A DNA stretch of 36,200 bases. Origin: Acidobacteriota bacterium (GTDB lineage: Bacteria; Actinomycetota; Acidimicrobiia; ATN3). The stretch's first letter is position 1. Each line of letters starts with the position of its first letter. Made by a program: the position numbers and the translations under genes. Below, piece after piece: positions 1,497 through 26,230 of this stretch. A model generated the notes under the pieces. The model was not told the origin of the DNA, did not search any database, and was given only the letters and a program-made list of their open reading frames with translations. The stretch lies in NCBI GenBank assembly GCA_003577105.1, contig QEUQ01000022.1, positions 1-36,200 of the forward strand, given 5' to 3'.

Positions 1497-2168
1497 TCAC
1501 TTGTCGCGGCCACCCGGCTTGTACGGGATTATCGGAGGCGCTCCGGTGGTGCGCGGCTGATCCTCCTGAGAGTCAAAGGGGTCTGCCCCAAGCTCCATCG
1601 CCTGGTCACGGGGAAAGTTTCCCTCGTACTTGAGCTTTGGAACGTGGAGCGCACCGAGTGTCCAGACCCATCTGAGCGTGCCCGGGCGGCACAGCACGAC
1701 CAGAGACGCGATCGCGACAAGTGCAATGGGAATCGGCGTGAAACGCCCAGGGACTCCGCGAATCCATTCGGCAAAGTTGACGATGAAGTCGACGACCGGC
1801 AGCAGGATCGTTGAGACCATGACGCACCACCCGATCTTGACCGCCGGCCGCCCGCGCTCACCTGCTATCAGAGCCCATGCGCCGCCAATCCTGATCAAGT
1901 TGGCAAAAGAGGCGACGAATATCGCCGCCCAGAGGACCGTCGTGCCGGGGGGAGGCAGTAGCCGAAAGTCATCGCTCCAAGGCGGCGCAAACGCGTAGAA
2001 AGCACTGGCCACTGTGAGCAGTACGAGATAGAGAAGGCTCAATAGCATCCAGGTCCACGAGACCACTCGGATCCCGATATCAGCCTTCTCAACTAAGCGA
2101 ATACCCGGGACCGGCCGCGGCCCGCCCTCCCTTTTCCAAGCGACATTGGGTGTGCTGCCCGAGCTCAC
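1497..2168 (-). CDS. Four-helix membrane protein of unknown function
   Basis: A 223-aa integral membrane protein with about four hydrophobic segments (residues ~35-58, 78-95, 108-130, 143-160), a positively charged N-terminus, and a hydrophilic, Pro-rich C-terminal tail ending in KPGGRDK. The layout is reminiscent of the DUF4328 type, but I do not recognise a diagnostic motif. It starts with GTG at 2168, overlapping the UbiB stop codon as GTGA, so the two are translationally coupled and the protein is probably made with UbiB. It is the last gene of the minus-strand operon that begins with the two APH-like genes. Function is not assignable; the coupling suggests it may work with, or help localise, the UbiB kinase. 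Confidence 0.72.
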   Translation of the reverse strand: MSSGSTPNVAWKREGGPRPVPGIRLVEKADIGIRVVSWTWMLLSLLYLVLLTVASAFYAFAPPWSDDFRLLPPPGTTVLWAAIFVASFANLIRIGGAWALIAGERGRPAVKIGWCVMVSTILLPVVDFIVNFAEWIRGVPGRFTPIPIALVAIASLVVLCRPGTLRWVWTLGALHVPKLKYEGNFPRDQAMELGADPFDSQEDQPRTTGAPPIIPYKPGGRDK

Positions 2169-3529
2169 CCGGCTCTTCGGTTCAGCATCGCCCGGACACC
2201 CTCGTCGTTGGCAACGCGCTCATTTAACGCAACGAGAACGGGGTCGTCAGCATCAATAAAGGAGAGACCACCTGCTATTGCCGGAATCTTTCCAGGTATC
2301 ACGTTCACGAGGTCAAGAGATCCGTCGAGCATCTTCGCGACGCCCTCAAATGTAATCTCGGACAAGAAGAATCCTGTTAGTTCGGCGTCAAGGTAGATCC
2401 GGTGCCGGCGAAGAATCGTCATGATCTCCACGAGGCCCTTGCCAATCTCAAAATCCGAGAAGCTGATGTCCTGATACTTCTCGACGAGTGCATTGGTGTC
2501 GCGAATTGCATCTTCAATGCTCGGCGGCCGTACCTCGGCATTGTCGAGATAGGTATCAACAATCAATTCAGCATTCATGGTCATCATTGACATGTAGAGC
2601 CTTATGAACTTCTTCGCATAGTGCTCAGGAACTTCATGCACCAGACCCGTATCGAGCAACACGTAATTGCCCTCGTGATCGATGAGCATGTTGCCCGGGT
2701 GTAGGTCCGCGTGCACGAAGAAGTCTCTAAAGGCCATGGAGAGATAGATATCGATCATTCTCTCGGCCATGACAGCGGGATCAATCGGAGGGTTATCGAG
2801 GATATCGGAGAGCTTCTTGCCCTCAATGAACTCCATGGTTATCACGTTGGGCCCGCATAGCTCCTCATGGATGTGGGGCACACGCGCAAACTCGAAGTCC
2901 GAGAGATTCTCTTCGAACCTCTTGTTGTTGCGAACTTCGAGGGGGAAGTCGAGCTGTGCTTGAATCTTCTTTGCGAACTCCTTCGACATTCGAGTGAGCC
3001 CGATGTTGCTCATCCCGGGAAGTAGATCAACAAAGCGCGAGACCCCTGAAATGATTGAGAGGTCGCGCCGCATCGTGTTGGCGATACCGGGCCTGCGAAC
3101 CTTCACGGCAACAACCTCGCCATCCGCGAGCCTCGCCTTGTGGACTTGAGATACCGAGGCCCCAGCAATCGGCTCCTGCTCGAACTCGGCAAATACGTCT
3201 TCGAGCGGGCAACCTAGGTCTGACTCAACCGCCGTGCGGACGGCGGTGAAACCAAATGGCGGAACTTGATCCTGAAGAGTCTGAAGCTCCTCAATCATCC
3301 AGGCCGGTAGGACATCGGGGCGCGCGGAAAGGATCTGCCCGATCTTGATGAAAGTTGCTCCGAGGTTCTTGAAGAAGTCAGTGAAACAGCGTCCGCCGAG
3401 GGCCTGAATTCGCACCTTTGCGTCCTTCGGCGCGGTCATCAAGTACCAGACGGAGACCCCAACAAACCTCGCGGACTGCCAAACCGCCTCAGAGCAAACC
3501 GAGAGGAATCGAAGCGCCGTGTAGAGCAT
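2165..3529 (-). CDS. ABC1/AarF/UbiB family atypical kinase-ATPase
   Basis: A 454-aa member of the UbiB/ADCK family. Characterised members support quinone and lipid biosynthesis or trafficking; actinobacterial members are mostly uncharacterised. Visible are the family-specific N-terminal KxGQ motif (FIKIGQILSARPDVLP), an Ala-rich nucleotide loop (IAGASVSQVH), the VAVKV lysine, and the catalytic loop HADLHPGNMLI. The metal-binding DFG motif reads DTG (VLLDTGLVHEV), a change at its middle residue. The C-terminal membrane helices often found in this family are not evident. ATG at 3529 is 2 nt from the stop of the upstream APH-like gene, and its own stop overlaps the downstream membrane protein. 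The operon therefore contains three proteins of the protein-kinase-like fold. Family assignment is secure; substrate is unknown. Confidence 0.88.
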   Translation of the reverse strand: MLYTALRFLSVCSEAVWQSARFVGVSVWYLMTAPKDAKVRIQALGGRCFTDFFKNLGATFIKIGQILSARPDVLPAWMIEELQTLQDQVPPFGFTAVRTAVESDLGCPLEDVFAEFEQEPIAGASVSQVHKARLADGEVVAVKVRRPGIANTMRRDLSIISGVSRFVDLLPGMSNIGLTRMSKEFAKKIQAQLDFPLEVRNNKRFEENLSDFEFARVPHIHEELCGPNVITMEFIEGKKLSDILDNPPIDPAVMAERMIDIYLSMAFRDFFVHADLHPGNMLIDHEGNYVLLDTGLVHEVPEHYAKKFIRLYMSMMTMNAELIVDTYLDNAEVRPPSIEDAIRDTNALVEKYQDISFSDFEIGKGLVEIMTILRRHRIYLDAELTGFFLSEITFEGVAKMLDGSLDLVNVIPGKIPAIAGGLSFIDADDPVLVALNERVANDEGVRAMLNRRAG

Positions 3530-3531
3530 GT

Positions 3532-4371
3532 CTAGACCTTAGAAGCAGCGTTTCGGAACGCTTCGAGCGCCCTCAGCGCCTCCTCGTTCATCTTCTCGGC
3601 AAGGTCGGGGCTTTGTTCGGCCAAGCCCGGAAGGTTCGGAACGTCGTAGGCGAGAAACCACAGCAAACGAGCTGAGTCAAGGCCAGCGAAAAAGACAGAC
3701 TTGTCAAGCTCAGTCTGGCGCGCCTCGAGATATGCATTTATTTGAGTCAAACGGTCAATTGGGCGGCCTACATGGAAGGGCGCTTGGTCTAGCCAGCTCG
3801 CCAAGTCTGCAGCCGCCGGACCAATCGAGGCTTGCGTCCAGTCGAGCCAAAAGATCTCACCGCCTGAACGCCGGAGGTGAAATGGCCAAGGGTCGCCATG
3901 GAGCAACGTCTGGGGACCTAGACGAAGAACGTCAATAAGCGGAGCGGGGTTCTTCAGAATCTCGCCAAGTTCGCCCGGAAGGACCCAGCCAGACGCCCGG
4001 GCATCTGACATGAGTTCGTTGAGATCCCGCCCCAACGGCCTTCGGATGACCGGGGACTCCAGCGCAGCTGACTCCTCGAAATGATCATGCATGGCCGCCA
4101 GCTGCTCAAGAGCCGCTACCAAGTCCTCGTCGGACCATTCCGTCCCTGCGTCTTTGATCTCTTCCTCGACAATCCATGAGATATCCCAGTCAATTACATG
4201 GGGTACAGGCATAGGAAGGCTCTCGAGGGTCAGCGCCATTCGCTCCCGCTCGATTGAGTCAGGAAGACCGACCTTCGCGACGTATCCGTTGCCTGCATAG
4301 GCGCGCGGATCTCCAAACCCGTCTAACTCAACGGGATCTGTGCCGACGTATTCGGCCACTTCAGGAATCAT
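3532..4371 (-). CDS. APH-like phosphotransferase with altered catalytic loop
   Basis: A 279-aa aminoglycoside-phosphotransferase/choline-kinase-like protein, paralogous to the gene just upstream. The N-lobe contains GNGYVAKVG (nucleotide-binding lysine region) and a conserved acidic segment. The catalytic loop reads HGDPWPFHLRR; in the canonical HGDxxxxN pattern the metal-binding Asn is here His, whereas the paralog keeps Asn. The DFG-equivalent Asp is present (FWLDWTQAS). This suggests either altered chemistry or a pseudokinase partner. The start is ATG at 4371, which aligns with the paralog's start; no clear ribosome site is seen. The stop is 2 nt before UbiB, so the two are tightly linked. 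This is not evidence for antibiotic resistance, since the family phosphorylates many small molecules. Confidence 0.8.
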   Translation of the reverse strand: MIPEVAEYVGTDPVELDGFGDPRAYAGNGYVAKVGLPDSIERERMALTLESLPMPVPHVIDWDISWIVEEEIKDAGTEWSDEDLVAALEQLAAMHDHFEESAALESPVIRRPLGRDLNELMSDARASGWVLPGELGEILKNPAPLIDVLRLGPQTLLHGDPWPFHLRRSGGEIFWLDWTQASIGPAAADLASWLDQAPFHVGRPIDRLTQINAYLEARQTELDKSVFFAGLDSARLLWFLAYDVPNLPGLAEQSPDLAEKMNEEALRALEAFRNAASKV

Positions 4372-4470
4372 TCGCGCAACGATGTGTGCTCTCTAGCAGG
4401 CCACTGGTAGTTGTGAAATCGCCGTAAACAATACGGGCAAATGGCCTTTGGGTGCAGTTCGGAGAGGTTC

Positions 4471-5313
4471 CTAACCCCTCACCGCGGCCAGCGCCCGCTC
4501 GGCCTCACGCACCATGGTCTCGGCAAGGGCAGCGCTTTCATCGGCCAGCGACGAGAGGTTGGGCGCGTCGAAAGCCAAGAACCAAGCCACTCGGGCTGCA
4601 TCGAGGGCTCTTGCGAAAGCTCCGGCGTCAACTTCCTTGCTGCGGGCCTCTAGGTAGGCATCGATGTGAGCTCTGCGGTCGATAGTCCTGCCAATTGCAA
4701 AGGGGGTCTGGTCGAGCCAGCTCGCCAGGTCGGCGACGGCCGGCGCAGCGGAGGCCTGGGTCCAGTCGATCCAGACGATTCCCTGGGGATCTCGAAGCAT
4801 GTTGTGTGGCCACGGATCGCCGTGGGTCAGAGTCAAGGGCAACTGGTCCAATGCCTCGGTCAGGACTGCCGGATCCTCCAACACCTCGATGAGCTCGTTT
4901 GAGAGATGCGCGGCGACGGAGGCTGTCTCTCGGAACAACCGACCCAGGTCACGGCTGAACGGCTTGCGAAGGACAGGCGATGTCAAGACGATCGCGTCCT
5001 CAAACTCGTCGTGCAATCGCGCCATTTGCCTTACTGCTTCGATGAGCTCTTCGTCGGACCACCGGCCTCGATCAAACTCGACCTCATCCATGACCAGCCA
5101 ATTGACGCCCCAATCAACTAGGTGAGGAGTGGTTACGGGCAGCTCACCAGCCTGACCGGATATCACAAAGGATTCGCGCTCTATCAGCTCCGGGGACGCA
5201 ATCTTGGCGACCTTGGAGTTGCCAAAGAGCAACACAGCGTCTGCCGTGCTCTCAAGAATGCGCGGGTCATCGCCCACGTACCGGAGCGCCTCTTCCGGGA
5301 ATGGCTGCTTCAT
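4471..5313 (-). CDS. APH-like small-molecule phosphotransferase
   Basis: A 280-aa kinase-fold protein and the first gene of the minus-strand operon. It shares the overall layout and many segments with the following paralog: SVSPVL/RKPFSRDLG-type linker, HGDPWP, IDWTQAS, ADLASWLDQ and a closing Ala/Glu-rich helix. Here the catalytic loop is intact, HGDPWPHNMLRD, with Asp and Asn, and IDW supplies the second metal-binding Asp. I placed the start at ATG 5313 (MKQPFPEEALRYVGDD) because it aligns with the paralog's start and a GAGG sequence lies just upstream; an in-frame extension to 5433 is Arg-rich and looks non-coding. The gap to the next gene is about 100 bp. The physiological substrate is unknown; linkage to UbiB hints at lipid or quinone metabolism, which is inference only. 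Confidence 0.8.
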   Translation of the reverse strand: MKQPFPEEALRYVGDDPRILESTADAVLLFGNSKVAKIASPELIERESFVISGQAGELPVTTPHLVDWGVNWLVMDEVEFDRGRWSDEELIEAVRQMARLHDEFEDAIVLTSPVLRKPFSRDLGRLFRETASVAAHLSNELIEVLEDPAVLTEALDQLPLTLTHGDPWPHNMLRDPQGIVWIDWTQASAAPAVADLASWLDQTPFAIGRTIDRRAHIDAYLEARSKEVDAGAFARALDAARVAWFLAFDAPNLSSLADESAALAETMVREAERALAAVRG

Positions 5314-7049: not shown

Positions 7050-8588
7050 TCAGGCAATACCCAGCACTGTTGTGCCGCCGTTGACAAGCGTCCCGATTCC
7101 GGGATCGAACTGGAAGTACATGGGGCGCTCGGCAACGATCGGCTGGGTCGAAGTGAGCTTGACCGAAACGTTCGTTGGGATTGCCACACTCTGGGACGCA
7201 AAATACTCGCTGACATTGAAGGTGAATCGCCGGCCGGCCTGCACCACCTGGACAGGGGGATTCGGTACGACGACCGGCGCACCGGCGTCATCTTGAACGG
7301 TCAACTCAATCGTGACATTCGCGTTGGTCCCGCCTGGGTTAGACATCGTCAGGTACTCGACGAAGCCAGGGCGCACTGCCCCCTCAGCGAAATACTGCGT
7401 GGTCAACGGAGCTGGGGCTCCCGCGACGGTGGTCCCGTCGTTGACTAGCGCTCCCAGATTCGGATTCGCGCTGAAGTACATGGGCCGTTCAGCAACTAGC
7501 GGCTGATCGGACTGGATCCGTACCGCCAGATTGACCGGGGTGGGCACGCTCTTTGAGCGTAGATAGTCATTGACGTTGAACGTGATTCTGCTGTTCGCCA
7601 GTATCGGAGGATCAGCCCCGCCAAAATGCTTGGGCGGAATATCAACGCCAACGCCGAAGTCATCTGCGGCCTGGAAGGAAATGGTCACGTCATTGGCTGA
7701 CAGCGATCCTGGATTCTGAATCGTCAGATACTCCATGTAACCAGGGCGAACAGTGCCTTCTGCGAAATAGAGATCGGTAATCGGGGTCGTCGGGCCAACC
7801 ACGGTGGTGCCGCCATTGACGAGGGTTCCGATTCCGGGGTCAAACTGGAAATACATGGGCCTCTCCGCGACTATCGGATGGACCGAAGAGACCTTTGTGC
7901 TGACGTTGACCGGGTAGTTGATACCTCTGCTCGCCACGTATTGGCTCACGTTGAAGGTATAACGAGAGTTCGCTAGGACTGTCACGTTGAACGGCGTGAT
8001 CGGAACAATCGAGCCGTCATCCTTGGCCGCCTGGAAGGTGATGGTGGTGAAGCTGTCGGACGGATTCGGATTCTGAATTGACAGGTACTCAACGAAACCC
8101 GGTCGAACTGTTCCCTCGGCAAAATAGAAATCGTTGTCCGGAAATGGCTGACCGACAACATCGGTACCGCCGTTCACGACAACTCCGAGATTGGGATTCG
8201 AATTGAAGTACATCGGGCGCTCGATCCGGGTATCACCTGTAGCGGTAACAAGCGCACTGATGTTGATCGGAAGTGGCACGGAATTCGCAGCCAGCCAGTC
8301 ATTCACGTTGAACGTGACTCTGGTGTTCGCGGCGACACCGGCATAGACCTTTGACGGAACGGCGATTCCGACGCCGGCGTCTGTCGAGGCCTGGAAGCTA
8401 ATCGTGATGGTCTGAGGCCCCGACAGCGACATGATCGTCAAGTACTCGACCCACCCAGACCGGACCGTCCCCTCGGCGAAATACCATGTGGTGGCAGCTG
8501 AAGCATGTGGTGCCGGCAGCAAAGCAAGCAGCAATATCGTCGCAGCGACCGCGACGCACCTCGCAAGACGCGCTCGGGCGGATGTCAT
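7050..8588 (-). CDS. Secreted protein with four ~118-residue YFAEG repeats
   Basis: 512 aa, with a Sec signal peptide (basic N-terminus, hydrophobic ~12-24, cleavage probably after HASA at ~31). The rest is four tandem units, roughly 33-152, 153-271, 272-396 and 397-512. Each opens with YFAEGTVRPGFVEYLTIQNP, contains a beta-rich middle and a TFNV motif, and closes with ERPMYF and NGGTTV. Each unit is probably a beta-sandwich; proteins of this kind occur in Actinobacteria and are unstudied to my knowledge. No transmembrane anchor or sorting signal is visible, so it is likely released or held non-covalently. GGGAGG lies 6 nt before the ATG. A TATGCT box at 8631-8636 on this strand could be its -10 element. 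It is divergent from the Ser/Thr kinase gene across a strong inverted repeat. Confidence 0.82.
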   Translation of the reverse strand: MTSARARLARCVAVAATILLLALLPAPHASAATTWYFAEGTVRSGWVEYLTIMSLSGPQTITISFQASTDAGVGIAVPSKVYAGVAANTRVTFNVNDWLAANSVPLPINISALVTATGDTRIERPMYFNSNPNLGVVVNGGTDVVGQPFPDNDFYFAEGTVRPGFVEYLSIQNPNPSDSFTTITFQAAKDDGSIVPITPFNVTVLANSRYTFNVSQYVASRGINYPVNVSTKVSSVHPIVAERPMYFQFDPGIGTLVNGGTTVVGPTTPITDLYFAEGTVRPGYMEYLTIQNPGSLSANDVTISFQAADDFGVGVDIPPKHFGGADPPILANSRITFNVNDYLRSKSVPTPVNLAVRIQSDQPLVAERPMYFSANPNLGALVNDGTTVAGAPAPLTTQYFAEGAVRPGFVEYLTMSNPGGTNANVTIELTVQDDAGAPVVVPNPPVQVVQAGRRFTFNVSEYFASQSVAIPTNVSVKLTSTQPIVAERPMYFQFDPGIGTLVNGGTTVLGIA

Positions 8589-20616: not shown

Positions 20617-23019
20617 CTAACGGGAGCGTGATCTTCTGCGACTCTGGTACGCGAGGGCAAGGCCAGCAATTACCGCCGCCACAACAGCGCCCGCAATCAA
20701 TAGCGGCCAAGGATTCCCACCGTCACCAGGTGGCCGAGCGCCGCCGACCGAAGGCTCGATTGAGGGAGGACCCCCGCCCGAGAATCGAAACTTGATCAGA
20801 AATGCGTCGTCCTCCCCGCCAAAGCGCCTCTGATAGGCGCGCACCGTCGGCAGATCATCTGACCGGCTCGCACCGGCGACATAGACATCACCTGCCCTAT
20901 CGGCCGCGACAGCTGCGGCGCTCGCGTCCCCCGACCCTCCCAGGTAAGTCGCATAGGTAGCCGCAGTTCCCGACTCATTGAGCATCACGAAGAAGCCAGT
21001 CGCCTCGCCGCCCGGATACTTGGGCAGGAAAGCGTCAGCGGTTGTCGGCATGTCGGCAGATGAAGTTGAACCCACCACCGATGCTCGGCCAGTTTTGTCG
21101 ACATCAACTGCGAGCCCCCAGTCCAAGCCGGATCCGCCAATCAAGGTGGAGTAAAGCAGCGCAGTGCCAGTCGGATTGAGTTTCGCGACAAACGCGCCAC
21201 CGGCCTTGTTCTCGGCGAGCATCGCTCCCTGCGTCGCCGGGAAATCGGTCGAGCGGGATTCCCCCGCAATGTAGGCGTTTCCGCCGGAGTCCACCGCAAC
21301 GTCATATGCCGCGTCAGGCATTGAGCCACCAAAGTAGGTTGAGTACACGAGGCGCGTTCCAGAGGGATCAAGCCGGGTGACAAAGGCATCTGCTGCTCCG
21401 CGAAGTTCCCTGAAGACCGCGCCATCAGTCGTCGGAAAATCTGAAGACTGCGTTCGCCCAACGGCATAAACACTGCGGTCCGGGCCGACGGCTACACCGA
21501 CGCCCCACTGACCTCCGGTACCACCGAGATATGTGGCGAAATCCAGCTTTGATCCATTGGGGGCAAGCTTTGCCACGAATACAGATGTGCGCTCAGGAAC
21601 GGACTTATTTGTCGACATGAAGGCTCCGGCTTGGACCGGGAAGTCCGTCGAGCGGGTCTCCCCAACCACATATGCGTTTCCGTCAGCATCTGCCGCAATC
21701 GAGCGCCCCCACTCGAAATCGGTTCCTCCGAGATAAGTCGAGTATTCGACATTCCCTAGCGGTCCCAGTTTGGCGACGACCGCATCGTCTGAACCCCGAA
21801 GATCCCGCTGCAGCGCACCCGAAGTAGTCGGATAGTCGGGCGACGTCGTCCGCCCCGTCACATAGGCGTTGCCCTTGTCATCTACTGCGATCTCTTGGAA
21901 GAAATCCTCTCCCGACCCGCCGAAGTAGGTCGAATAGACGAGGTCACTTCCGGCCGAGTTGAACTTGGTGACGAAGCCGTCGACGCTATCGGGATTACTG
22001 CTCGCGAAGGCGCTCTGTGCAGCCCGCGGAGTCAGAGGAAAATCCGGCGATTTCGTAGAGCCGGCAATGTACGCATTGCCCTCCTGATCTACAGCCGCCC
22101 CGACTGCTGAGTCCGATCGAGTTCCGCCTAGGTAGGTCGAGTACTCGACGGTGGGATCTATCAGCAAGGTGCTATTGACGTCGCGCTCACCCACCTCTAT
22201 GCCGAATGTGCCCGGCGCACGCTCGCTGAAGGCTGACGTGACCGGCCTCCCGTCAGCCTCAATTGCCTTGGGCTTGGAGATGCGCACCCGGCCAAAATCA
22301 GCTGCGGCTTCGAGGTCGCCCTCCGGAGTCAAGACCGCGCCGGAAACCACAATGTTGATTGGCTCCGTCGCTGCTCCTGGAGCAACCCGCAAATCGAAGG
22401 CCAGCGACCGGCCATCTGATCTGTAGTGCAGATCGACCCCGTCAAAGATGCTCCGCACGACGAGAGACTCGAAATTGGGGATCCCGGTTCGCGTGCCACC
22501 TCTCGCTGCCGAAAGGTAATAGTTGGAATATCCGGCAATTGGGCCATCCGGCTCTACAAGCGCCTCCTGGCGAGTTCCACTGAACTGGACCGCGAGGTGG
22601 CCGCCATCGTGCGCTTCTAGTGAAATGCCGCCCGGGCTCACAAGCGCGTTGTAGGTCGCGGCGCGTGCAAGGAACCTTTCGCCCCAAGACTCGAAGGTCA
22701 CACCCCGGTCGGCGGCGACCGATACCCCGGACATTGCGGAATGAGCGGGACTCGGCTCACTTGTCACTGGCGCCACGCTCAAACCTGCAAGGACCAGGCA
22801 CCCCAAGAGAACGAGAGTCACGGCTCTCAGCGACCCGCTACCGCTGCGGGTCGCGGTCGGGCGATGGGGTGGGGCCGGCGGGCCGGCGGGCCGGCGAGGG
22901 ACTGATCGATGTCTACTTCGCGTGGCCGGGCCGGTGCTGGTTGCCACCCGGCTCAGCGTAGTCCGCGCGCACCCGCAGACCTCGAGTGCGAGGCCGCCGT
23001 CGGATTTCGTCTCAACCAC
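20617..23019 (-). CDS. Membrane-anchored SBBP (seven-blade beta-propeller) surface protein
   Basis: 800 aa. A long basic N-terminal segment leads to a signal-anchor helix (~65-85), then a DUF7948-like N-terminal domain (~95-285) ending in LLIDPT. Seven blades follow (~288-740), each opening with a variant of YSTYLGG and containing AVD..GNAYVAG and DFPTT. Seven units fit a closed seven-bladed propeller. The end is a Pro/Gly spacer, a transmembrane helix (~772-792) and an Arg-rich stop (RRRSRSR), so the propeller is displayed outside the cell and anchored at the C-terminus. The start (GTG 23019) directly abuts GGAG and is uncertain; GTG 22947 is an alternative. It is a paralog of the next gene upstream. 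Role: probably adhesion or ligand binding. Confidence 0.82.
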   Translation of the reverse strand: MVETKSDGGLALEVCGCARTTLSRVATSTGPATRSRHRSVPRRPAGPPAPPHRPTATRSGSGSLRAVTLVLLGCLVLAGLSVAPVTSEPSPAHSAMSGVSVAADRGVTFESWGERFLARAATYNALVSPGGISLEAHDGGHLAVQFSGTRQEALVEPDGPIAGYSNYYLSAARGGTRTGIPNFESLVVRSIFDGVDLHYRSDGRSLAFDLRVAPGAATEPINIVVSGAVLTPEGDLEAAADFGRVRISKPKAIEADGRPVTSAFSERAPGTFGIEVGERDVNSTLLIDPTVEYSTYLGGTRSDSAVGAAVDQEGNAYIAGSTKSPDFPLTPRAAQSAFASSNPDSVDGFVTKFNSAGSDLVYSTYFGGSGEDFFQEIAVDDKGNAYVTGRTTSPDYPTTSGALQRDLRGSDDAVVAKLGPLGNVEYSTYLGGTDFEWGRSIAADADGNAYVVGETRSTDFPVQAGAFMSTNKSVPERTSVFVAKLAPNGSKLDFATYLGGTGGQWGVGVAVGPDRSVYAVGRTQSSDFPTTDGAVFRELRGAADAFVTRLDPSGTRLVYSTYFGGSMPDAAYDVAVDSGGNAYIAGESRSTDFPATQGAMLAENKAGGAFVAKLNPTGTALLYSTLIGGSGLDWGLAVDVDKTGRASVVGSTSSADMPTTADAFLPKYPGGEATGFFVMLNESGTAATYATYLGGSGDASAAAVAADRAGDVYVAGASRSDDLPTVRAYQRRFGGEDDAFLIKFRFSGGGPPSIEPSVGGARPPGDGGNPWPLLIAGAVVAAVIAGLALAYQSRRRSRSR

Positions 23020-23049
23020 CTCCGCGTGAAATCGGGGTCAGCTACTCAC

Positions 23050-23070
23050 GTTAGCGCGTGTGGCGCTAAC
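23050..23070 (-). terminator. Perfect 8-bp hairpin between the two SBBP genes
   Basis: GTTAGCGC (23050-23057) and GCGCTAAC (23063-23070) are exact reverse complements with a 5-nt loop, GTGTG. It lies 41 bp after the stop of the large SBBP gene and ~30 bp before the start region of the next SBBP gene on the same strand. Terminator is the likeliest reading, but an operator for the downstream gene is possible. Confidence 0.5.
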
Positions 23071-23110
23071 CGCTTGCTTTGGTGATTTGAAGAAGTCCCG
23101 AGGCCCCGCC

Positions 23111-26100
23111 TCAGCTCAGCGAGAAATTCGCCGTGAATGGCGCGACGTTGTCAGTTGCCGTCGAGAAGCTCGACGCCCCTGAGAACCACTGCCGAGTGTA
23201 GGGACCTCCCTCGGTAACCAGTCTGTAGCTCTCCCCTGGATTGACCTGGATTCGATATCTCCCTGGTCCGTATCCGCGATCAGTCACACCCTTAGCAAAG
23301 AAGGTACCTGCTGAGGTGTATGCATATACGGGGTACCCATTCAAGTCAGCCGCGGTTGAAGCGTCTTTGACGTATCCGTCGATTGCATCCGCCGGAGTTA
23401 CTGAGAAGTTTGCTGTGGCAGGTGGGGCCTGCGCTGTAGCGTCGGTGAAATTCTGTGCGCCAGAGAACCACTGGGTCACGTATCCCGCACCTGGATTGAC
23501 AAGGATCTTGTAAGTCTCCGACGACGACAGCAATAGCTCATACCTGCCAGGTCCGGCCGAGCCTGAGGCCGAGAACCCGGCATATGTCCCGTCTGCCTTA
23601 AATGCATATACCGACGCGCCATCAATGTCGGCGGCAGTCGCCGAATCTTTGACATAGCCCGATATCACCGCGGCCGATGGAATCGTCATGTCATTGCCTG
23701 ACGACGGCCCCCTCACGCATGTCGCACCACTGAAATTGGGCTTGTCGTTGTACCAGCGCGACTGGGTCGAGTCGTCTGGCGGGAGATACAAGATCGCATA
23801 CCCTCGGCCGGCAGCGCAGTTCGATGGCGGCACCTTGATCGACCACGACCCCCCGGAACCCGCAATGCAGCACTGGTAGGCCGTGACCGCGCCGGTGGCC
23901 TTGGAGTAGATCGAAATCGAACCCCACATCCCACCGGTGAATGTGCCCGATATTGTGACAACCGGAGGCGGATGCTTCGTCAGGAATCCATCGCCGGTGG
24001 CTTGATCGGTCTGGTACTCGCCTACCGTCGGGAAGTCGGCTGAAGACGTCGGTCCGGCGATGTACGTATTGCCCGAAGAGTCGACGGCAACTCCTTGTGC
24101 GTCTTCGCTACCGGTCCCCCCCAGGTAGGTCGAGTACAGGAGTGCTGAATCAGTCCCGTCGAGCATTGCCATGAACGCATCATCGGTACCTGATAGGTCC
24201 GCCTGATACGGATCTTCGGTCGGGAAATCCGATGAAGAGGTCTTGCCCGCGACAATGGCGTTGCCATCTGCGTCTAGCTCCATCGATCTGCCGTCGTCGG
24301 CCGAGCTTCCGCCGAGATACGTCGAGTAGTCCAACGAAGCGCCGGAAGCTGCGAAATGAGTCGCGAATGCGTCAGTTGCGCCGCCGCCATAACTGGGCTG
24401 CGATGCAGACACCATTGGGAAGTCACTGGATGCGGTCGAACCTACGACCGTAGCGCTGCCACTTGAGTCAATCTCAAGGTCGAGTGCAAAGTCTGCTCCA
24501 GCGCCGCCGAGATACGTCGAGTAGTCCAGCGCCGAACCGGCTGGATTGGCTTTGAAGACGAATGCATCGCTGCCTCCGGCGTTTGACGGCTGCAACGGAG
24601 CTACCATCGGGAAGTCGGTTGAGCCCGTATAGCCCGCTACATAGGCGGCACCAGACGAATCAACCGCGACGCCTCTTGCCTCGTCAAAACCCGTGCCGCC
24701 CAAGAAAGTCGAATACACGAGAACCAGCCCCGCCGGGCCCACCTTAGAAATGAATCCGTCTGTGCCCCCCGCCTTGGCCCCCTGAATCGGCGAAACGGTT
24801 GGGAAAGTTGCCGAAGCAGTGTCCCCCACGACATAGGCGGCACCGGAAGAGTCAACGGCGATTCCTCGGCCAGTCTCAATGTCCGTACCCCCGAGATAGC
24901 TCGAGTAACTAAGTGATGACCCCGACGGGTGGACCTTCGCGACAAATACGTCATAGGCACCAGCCATGAAGCCCTGAAAGGCCGAGGCTGTTGGGAAGTC
25001 CACAGAGAACGTCTTGCCCGTAACGTAGGCGGCCCCCGAAGCATCGATGGCTATCGATACAGCAGTGTCATCACTGCTCCCACCCAGGTAGCTTGAGTAA
25101 GCGAGGGATGAGCCCGAAGCGCTGAATTTCGTTACAAACGATTCCACTCCACCGGCGTATACACCCTGGAATGGACTCGCAGTCGGGAAGTCGGTTGAGC
25201 CCGTATACCCCGTCACATACGCAGCCCCAGAAGAGTCGACTGCTACTGCGCTAGCCCAATCAGCTGCACCTCCGCCCAGATAAGTCGAATATGTGAGGGT
25301 CGGGTCAATTACTAGTGGCCGACCTTGATCGTAGGCGCCGACTTCGAATCCAACGATGCGCTCGTCTCGCATGACAAATCGACTGAAGACCTCGGACCTC
25401 TCGCTGCCCTGATACGCGAACGGGGCCCTGTGAACTAGCCGGCCGAAGTCAGAATCTACCTGGAGCCTGCCCTCTTCTGAAATCGCTATGCCCTGGGCAC
25501 CCTCGAATTGGAGGGAAATCTGGCCAGGGTCTGCGCCGGGCGCAATCTCAAAGTCATATCTCACTTGGCCATGATCGTCGTAGATCACCATGTCGATACC
25601 AGGCCAAAGGTCGCGGTAGTAAACCTTCGAATACCCGCCGACATCAGTACGCCACTTGGTCTGGTCGCTTCCGAGGAAATAGTTCGAAACGCCAGCTTGG
25701 GGCTCCCCGGCCTCGATCACCGGCTGCGGATTCGCACCCGCGAAGGTCATGGATACTGCGGCGACCCGCGTTTGTTCGGAGACTGGCGCGCCAGCCCCGT
25801 CGGGAGAATCCGCATCGCCGGCGGCCCTGCCCTCGGGTAGTCCAAATCGAATTGCATCGCTCGACAACGAGGCTATGAACCCCTTGGCCCTGAGGGTGTA
25901 GGCAACGCCATCTGGAGCCTGACCGACGTTTGGCTCGAAGCGCGCAGGCAGGCTGGCCAGCAGGTTCTGCCCGCTTGGCGCCACAGGCGCTTGGGTGCTA
26001 GTCGATTGGACTTGTTCCTCGCGCCCAACTGATTCGGTCGATCTGGGCAAGACGACAATTGCCAGCGAGGCAGCGAGCACGACCACAAGTGCCAAGTTCA

Positions 26101-26230
26101 TGAGCGGTCTTGGGCGCGAACCCCCGTGGACCGTGCGAGAGGCTGTGATCGGCCTCGTCGCCTGATGCGGTCGGGCACGGTCGCGCCAATCTGCTAGGCG
26201 ATCAAGACGGCTGCTGCTCGGCCTAGCCAT
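23111..26230 (-). CDS. Large secreted SBBP beta-propeller protein with three C-terminal beta-sandwich domains
   Basis: 1039 aa. A basic N-terminal segment and signal-anchor helix (~43-62) precede a DUF7948-type domain (~90-310: FEPNVGQAPDGV, FRFGLPEG-like, VIDPTLTYSTYLGG). Seven propeller blades follow (~311-735), each opening with YSTYLGG or a close variant and containing VAVDSSGAAYVAGYTGSTDF. After PPPVVTISG come three repeated domains (~745-850, ~850-945, ~945-1039) of the carboxypeptidase-regulatory/SpaA-like beta-sandwich type (YVKDxxTAADLNGYPVYAY, GPGRYxxxxxPGxxY, QWFSGAxxF). No C-terminal membrane helix is visible. GGAG lies 7 nt before ATG 26230. Probably a surface-associated binding protein; its ligand is unknown. 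Confidence 0.88.
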   Translation of the reverse strand: MARPSSSRLDRLADWRDRARPHQATRPITASRTVHGGSRPRPLMNLALVVVLAASLAIVVLPRSTESVGREEQVQSTSTQAPVAPSGQNLLASLPARFEPNVGQAPDGVAYTLRAKGFIASLSSDAIRFGLPEGRAAGDADSPDGAGAPVSEQTRVAAVSMTFAGANPQPVIEAGEPQAGVSNYFLGSDQTKWRTDVGGYSKVYYRDLWPGIDMVIYDDHGQVRYDFEIAPGADPGQISLQFEGAQGIAISEEGRLQVDSDFGRLVHRAPFAYQGSERSEVFSRFVMRDERIVGFEVGAYDQGRPLVIDPTLTYSTYLGGGAADWASAVAVDSSGAAYVTGYTGSTDFPTASPFQGVYAGGVESFVTKFSASGSSLAYSSYLGGSSDDTAVSIAIDASGAAYVTGKTFSVDFPTASAFQGFMAGAYDVFVAKVHPSGSSLSYSSYLGGTDIETGRGIAVDSSGAAYVVGDTASATFPTVSPIQGAKAGGTDGFISKVGPAGLVLVYSTFLGGTGFDEARGVAVDSSGAAYVAGYTGSTDFPMVAPLQPSNAGGSDAFVFKANPAGSALDYSTYLGGAGADFALDLEIDSSGSATVVGSTASSDFPMVSASQPSYGGGATDAFATHFAASGASLDYSTYLGGSSADDGRSMELDADGNAIVAGKTSSSDFPTEDPYQADLSGTDDAFMAMLDGTDSALLYSTYLGGTGSEDAQGVAVDSSGNTYIAGPTSSADFPTVGEYQTDQATGDGFLTKHPPPVVTISGTFTGGMWGSISIYSKATGAVTAYQCCIAGSGGSWSIKVPPSNCAAGRGYAILYLPPDDSTQSRWYNDKPNFSGATCVRGPSSGNDMTIPSAAVISGYVKDSATAADIDGASVYAFKADGTYAGFSASGSAGPGRYELLLSSSETYKILVNPGAGYVTQWFSGAQNFTDATAQAPPATANFSVTPADAIDGYVKDASTAADLNGYPVYAYTSAGTFFAKGVTDRGYGPGRYRIQVNPGESYRLVTEGGPYTRQWFSGASSFSTATDNVAPFTANFSLS

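Follow-up and report, generated by a model that had tools for sequence, protein, structure and literature searches.

A pair of APH-like kinase genes, one copy with an altered active site, in an uncultured actinobacterium and a relative

Analysis of the window (the whole 36,200-nucleotide stretch of DNA studied here) revealed a run of four minus-strand genes at positions 1497-5313, arranged head to tail, that includes two diverged paralogs of the APH/choline-kinase fold, here called APH1 and APH2. Our preferred reading, to which we give a probability of roughly two in five, is that the locus encodes a small-molecule kinase together with a diverged paralogous partner in one operon, with other operon members that depend on the lineage. 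Under this tentative scheme APH1 and APH2 would act in the same pathway; APH1 would phosphorylate a hydroxyl group of a metabolite using ATP, and APH2 would persist as a partner, be it heteromer subunit, stabilizer or regulator, whose own catalysis is under relaxed demand.

The APH-like pair in the window

APH1 (4471..5313, minus strand) encodes 280 amino acids counted from an ATG; a longer GTG frame extends to 5433. It is separated by 99 bp from APH2 (3532..4371, minus strand, 279 aa), which lies 2 bp from a gene for a UbiB/ABC1-family atypical kinase (2165..3529, minus strand, 454 aa). The stop of the UbiB gene overlaps by 4 bp the start of a gene for a 223-aa membrane protein (1497..2168, minus strand), which is predicted to span the membrane four times and has no Pfam family. 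An earlier note on this DNA had described these genes, their tight spacings and the motifs HGDPWPHN, HGDPWPFH and, in UbiB, DTG; all were confirmed in the sequence.

Both APH-like proteins passed the curated PF01636 threshold (cut-off 23.2), APH1 with 36.6 bits (E=5.6e-09) and APH2 with 32 bits (E=1.4e-07), and they share 48% identity across 272 aa. The catalytic residues of APH1 are intact: the beta3 lysine in VAK (codon 5203-5205, minus strand), the HGDPWPHN loop ending at 4801 and the DxG-type aspartate in WID (codon 4765-4767). In APH2 the loop reads HGDPWPFH, an incomplete HGDxxxxN loop in which histidine takes the place of the metal-binding asparagine; this asparagine belongs to the ten key residues recognized for the kinase-like fold (PMC1821047). 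The histidine codon CAC (3877..3879, minus strand) is one base away from the family's asparagine codon (AAC/AAT). Just this one key residue is lost, and APH2 retains the beta3 lysine, the alphaC glutamate, the HGD aspartate, the DxG-type aspartate and the alphaF aspartate. The change is unusual, since the other APH-like proteins with a readable motif, whether from the window genome, from its relative G001 or from the class, keep the asparagine.

The AlphaFold2 model of APH2 had a mean pLDDT of 91.6 and a complete kinase-like fold, placing APH2 in the family by fold as well as by profile. A Foldseek search of the PDB with this model identified 3dxq, of the choline/ethanolamine kinase family, as the closest structure (TM ~0.64, E 4e-09), with further matches to LicA, PsiK, APH and Mph enzymes. 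As the nearest structures to the APH2 model are choline/ethanolamine kinase, LicA, PsiK and APH, the substrate of the pair is probably a small hydroxylated metabolite. PDB sequence searches with APH1 (phmmer) and with the family profile (hmmsearch) gave no match, and no NCBIfam equivalog was matched by the pair above its cut-off. Set against the APH/choline-kinase-fold kinases (PF01636; CAK family, Kannan et al. 2007, PMC1821047), the APH2 model shares the fold, and APH1 shares the HGDxxxxN loop, the beta3 lysine and the DxG-type aspartate, whereas the pair is far in sequence from solved members and consists of two tandem copies, one of them altered.

The main alternative, a serious one although short of even odds, is that APH2 is an active, neofunctionalized kinase with another substrate or metal preference, so that the pair would carry out two separate phosphorylations. 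The histidine would then replace asparagine in metal coordination, or neighboring residues would compensate. This alternative draws on the full set of other key residues kept in APH2, on the short branch of APH2 in the family tree described below, and on methylthioribose kinase (MTRK), an enzyme of the same fold that is active with serine at the asparagine position (PMC4702295). The metal-binding asparagine is thus naturally replaced in both proteins, but MTRK has serine where APH2 has histidine and belongs to another substrate family, and APH2 has no match to the MTRK profile. Another structure on the same side is PDB 3w0q, a ternary complex of APH(4)-Ia N203A, the mutated residue being apparently at the same position as judged by its spacing from D198. 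Because active MTRK carries serine at this position and APH2 has lost a single key residue, pseudokinase status for APH2 is unproven; the compatibility of asparagine loss with activity (PMC4702295) also weakens our preferred reading of a kinase with a diverged partner.

UbiB and the membrane protein

The UbiB protein matched PF03109 with 227 bits (E=2.1e-67). Like other members of the UbiB/ABC1/ADCK family, the gene at 2165-3529 carries all of the family motifs, namely KIGQ, the A-rich loop AGAS, the lysine, the glutamate, HADLHPGN and DTG (in VLLDTG). Against the ubiquinone-biosynthesis equivalog TIGR01982 it scored 308.9 bits, below the cut-off of 487.55. No transmembrane segment was predicted from its hydropathy, as for most of the relatives compared; the C-terminal transmembrane pair found in some family members (L082, L084) is absent from the window protein. 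The earlier note had presented DTG as a departure from DFG. The motif was read correctly, but when 17 UbiB homologs of the same genome and the class were aligned, the middle residue of DxG was F, Y, W, V, L or T. This variability is ordinary, and with the other catalytic residues intact a degenerate UbiB kinase was ruled out.

The membrane protein had no match in a Pfam search, and its relatives in the window genome and G001 reached 26-27% identity at most. Its AlphaFold2 model (pLDDT 54) was unusable. We take UbiB to be an ordinary ABC1-type ATPase/kinase, possibly docked at the membrane through the co-translated four-helix protein; it would share the APH transcript in the window lineage and would not be essential to the APH unit. 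In PADLOC, UbiB gave low-scoring matches through the kinase core only and the three other proteins gave none, by which a known anti-phage defence system was ruled out.

Homologs of both proteins occur elsewhere in the window genome (G000; L070-L076 plus the window, 2.9 Mb). It contains eight UbiB/ABC1 homologs (E <= 1e-30); published genomes are described as having a single copy or a few (PMC1821047). At L069:8834-12182 a paralog of the membrane protein precedes two genes that by eye resemble PAP2-type phosphatases, the second apparently with a kinase-like domain. Other features of the window include a secreted-looking protein (7050-8588) with about four repeats of ~120 aa (YFAEGTVRxGxVEYLTI) and a weak DUF5719 match, and two adjoining large proteins (20617-26230) with DUF7948 and SBBP beta-propeller repeats.

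A related pair and the history of the duplication

Among the sampled genomes the window genome alone represents its family; one further genome of the order was available, G001, which belongs to another family. G001 also carries two APH-like genes (L021:9105-9989 and L021:13015-13896). They bracket a gene for a 1010-aa FAD/Fe-S oxidase, a fusion of an FAD oxidase and a 4Fe-4S domain, with 4-base overlaps on both sides, forming a three-gene run. Genes for a P450, a thiolase and other oxidoreductases come after this run (L021:9105-13896). A search of the window genome with the G001 oxidase gave no good match. Both genomes have a divergently oriented pentapeptide-repeat gene close to the pair (41% identity over 344 aa), which suggests that the two pairs descend from the same ancestral locus.

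The first G001 copy is canonical, with VVK, HGDPFPRN and WID. In the second copy the asparagine is kept (HGDPWPAN), the beta3 lysine is replaced by histidine (CAT) and the DxG-type aspartate by asparagine. The same asymmetry is therefore common to both genomes, with one intact copy and one altered, at different residues. Since the related genome keeps a similar pair with a second copy altered elsewhere in the fold, the two proteins may work together, and the occurrence of the G001 pair in one tight run with this asymmetry favors the reading of a kinase with a diverged partner. As judged from its residues, the second G001 copy, lacking both the lysine and the aspartate, is a stronger non-catalytic candidate than APH2; activity is harder to reconcile with this counterpart, which counts against APH2 being an active kinase of its own. 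The earlier note's proposal of an active APH protein with an altered paralog is accordingly upheld for the pair itself, which recurs in a related genome, and goes too far for APH2, whose catalytic death is not established. Its suggestion that the asparagine-to-histidine change might be a conserved feature did not hold: the change was found in the window genome only, the second G001 copy having lost other residues.

The note had also brought in UbiB and a coupled membrane protein. Taken further, this gives a dedicated four-gene system, in which an active APH kinase and its pseudokinase paralog would share a lipid or quinone-like target with UbiB and the membrane protein. The 2-bp gap and the 4-bp overlap would fit such a system, as would UbiB-APH neighbors at two further loci (L077 and L071), though the APH proteins there are of another subfamily. 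In contrast, the four-gene order was not found in G001, where neither a UbiB gene nor a membrane-protein gene is present at the pair locus. The G001 UbiB proteins share at most 32% identity with the window UbiB and include no clear ortholog. The membrane-protein relative in G001 (27%) lies elsewhere, with other genes between it and a UbiB gene; the relatives of the membrane protein do not adjoin UbiB genes. Nor did the closest UbiB relatives examined have an adjoining APH gene of the pair family or membrane-protein relative. We consider a dedicated four-gene system improbable and disfavor it.

The two further loci just mentioned form a second UbiB-APH linkage, present in both genomes. At L077:2929-5583 in G001 the UbiB and APH genes are 6 bp apart, and at L071:1855-6165 in the window genome a UbiB gene, a TPP-enzyme gene and an APH gene lie in a row. 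At these loci UbiB has DWG and the APH protein a canonical HGDYRLDN. If UbiB and APH proteins have a conserved functional link, this linkage is a more promising candidate for it than the window locus.

Strong matches to the APH-pair family were found in 4/395 sampled genomes of the class. Beyond the window genome and G001 these were two genomes with a single gene each and intact catalytic residues; one of these homologs is on a G173 contig identical to JACPCJ010000031.1 from an Actinomycetota MAG, which places the class of the window genome in Actinomycetota. Searches of the orders of G173 and G220 identified no additional members, and in a 396-genome sample of the phylum the family was present in the window genome only. 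When contigs were scanned with APH2 as the single query no relative was recovered, and the four-sequence profile recovered one. Judged by these sequence searches, this is a small, lineage-restricted family of APH/choline-kinase-fold kinases. The intact state of the single-copy outgroups favors our preferred reading, and the presence of the pair in two genomes only weakens it.

Phylogenetic trees were rooted on the homologs from the two single-copy genomes, giving six sequences in all, and the tests are correspondingly weak. A separate duplication in each genome was ruled out (AU p 0.005-0.017, four models), and the duplication is therefore older than the two families. One-to-one orthology, ((APH1s),(APH2s)), was marginal (AU p 0.050-0.091). 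The intact G001 copy was outermost in the best tree; both results weaken the reading of a kinase with a diverged partner. Raw identity is highest between the two altered copies (52%), and the trees do not settle which window copy corresponds to which G001 copy. APH2 had the shortest branch, and in relative-rate tests on the six sequences it was not faster than APH1. Pairs involving APH2 gave pN ~0.36 against pS ~0.73-0.80, and nonsynonymous change was well below synonymous change in all pairs, with synonymous sites saturated. By these measures APH1 and APH2 are both under constraint.

These data also bear on whether there is anything special about APH2, which might instead be a decaying duplicate or owe its histidine to a single-base consensus error in a MAG. 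The change amounts to one base (CAC for AAC) in one MAG and is not conserved, which is in keeping with decay or error and weakens our preferred reading. Against this, the APH2 frame is open over its full length, the fold is confident, no rate excess was detected and constraint is strong. The lysine-to-histidine change in G001 takes two base changes, so the altered second copies are not all the product of error. Simple decay was ruled out by the lack of rate excess and by pN well below pS, and decay and error taken together are unlikely. The earlier note had named a non-conserved gene order and a histidine restricted to this genome, through simple decay, as what would speak against its proposal; order and histidine turned out that way, and the rates contradict decay. 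The age of the duplication, the shared ancestral locus, the unexceptional rate and the confident fold of APH2 together favor a kinase with a retained, diverged partner.

Active enzymes with altered paralogs

Pairs of an active enzyme and a dead paralog are known as 'prozyme' pairs from trypanosomatid AdoMetDC and deoxyhypusine synthase (PMC5201418, PMC3663545). Those pairs are eukaryotic, have other folds and interact demonstrably, whereas for the window pair an interaction is proposed. Bacterial kinase folds with lost catalytic residues have been described in the actinobacterial Ser/Thr pseudokinase families ActPs1-3 and DYD (PMC12599244), which are Ser/Thr protein kinases; in contrast, the window pair consists of APH-type small-molecule kinases. 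A literature search for APH-type pseudokinase pairs found none in the library searched. We infer that the second copy may lack catalysis and bind the first. In its boldest form, which we regard as rather doubtful, the proposal would be that of a bacterial 'prozyme', in which an active APH/choline-kinase-fold kinase is obligately partnered by a repeatedly and differently altered paralog, while the rest of the operon can be exchanged (UbiB and the membrane protein, or the FAD/Fe-S oxidase).

Bacterial small-molecule kinases form a very large family with roles in antibiotic resistance and lipid metabolism, and a lost catalytic residue in them is usually read as decay. If the two proteins do not interact, the pair would be an ordinary diverged duplicate. 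If they do form a heteromer, the principle of an enzyme with an inactive paralog would extend to bacterial small-molecule kinases, and the differing lesions in two related genomes could be used to test what a partner requires of the fold.
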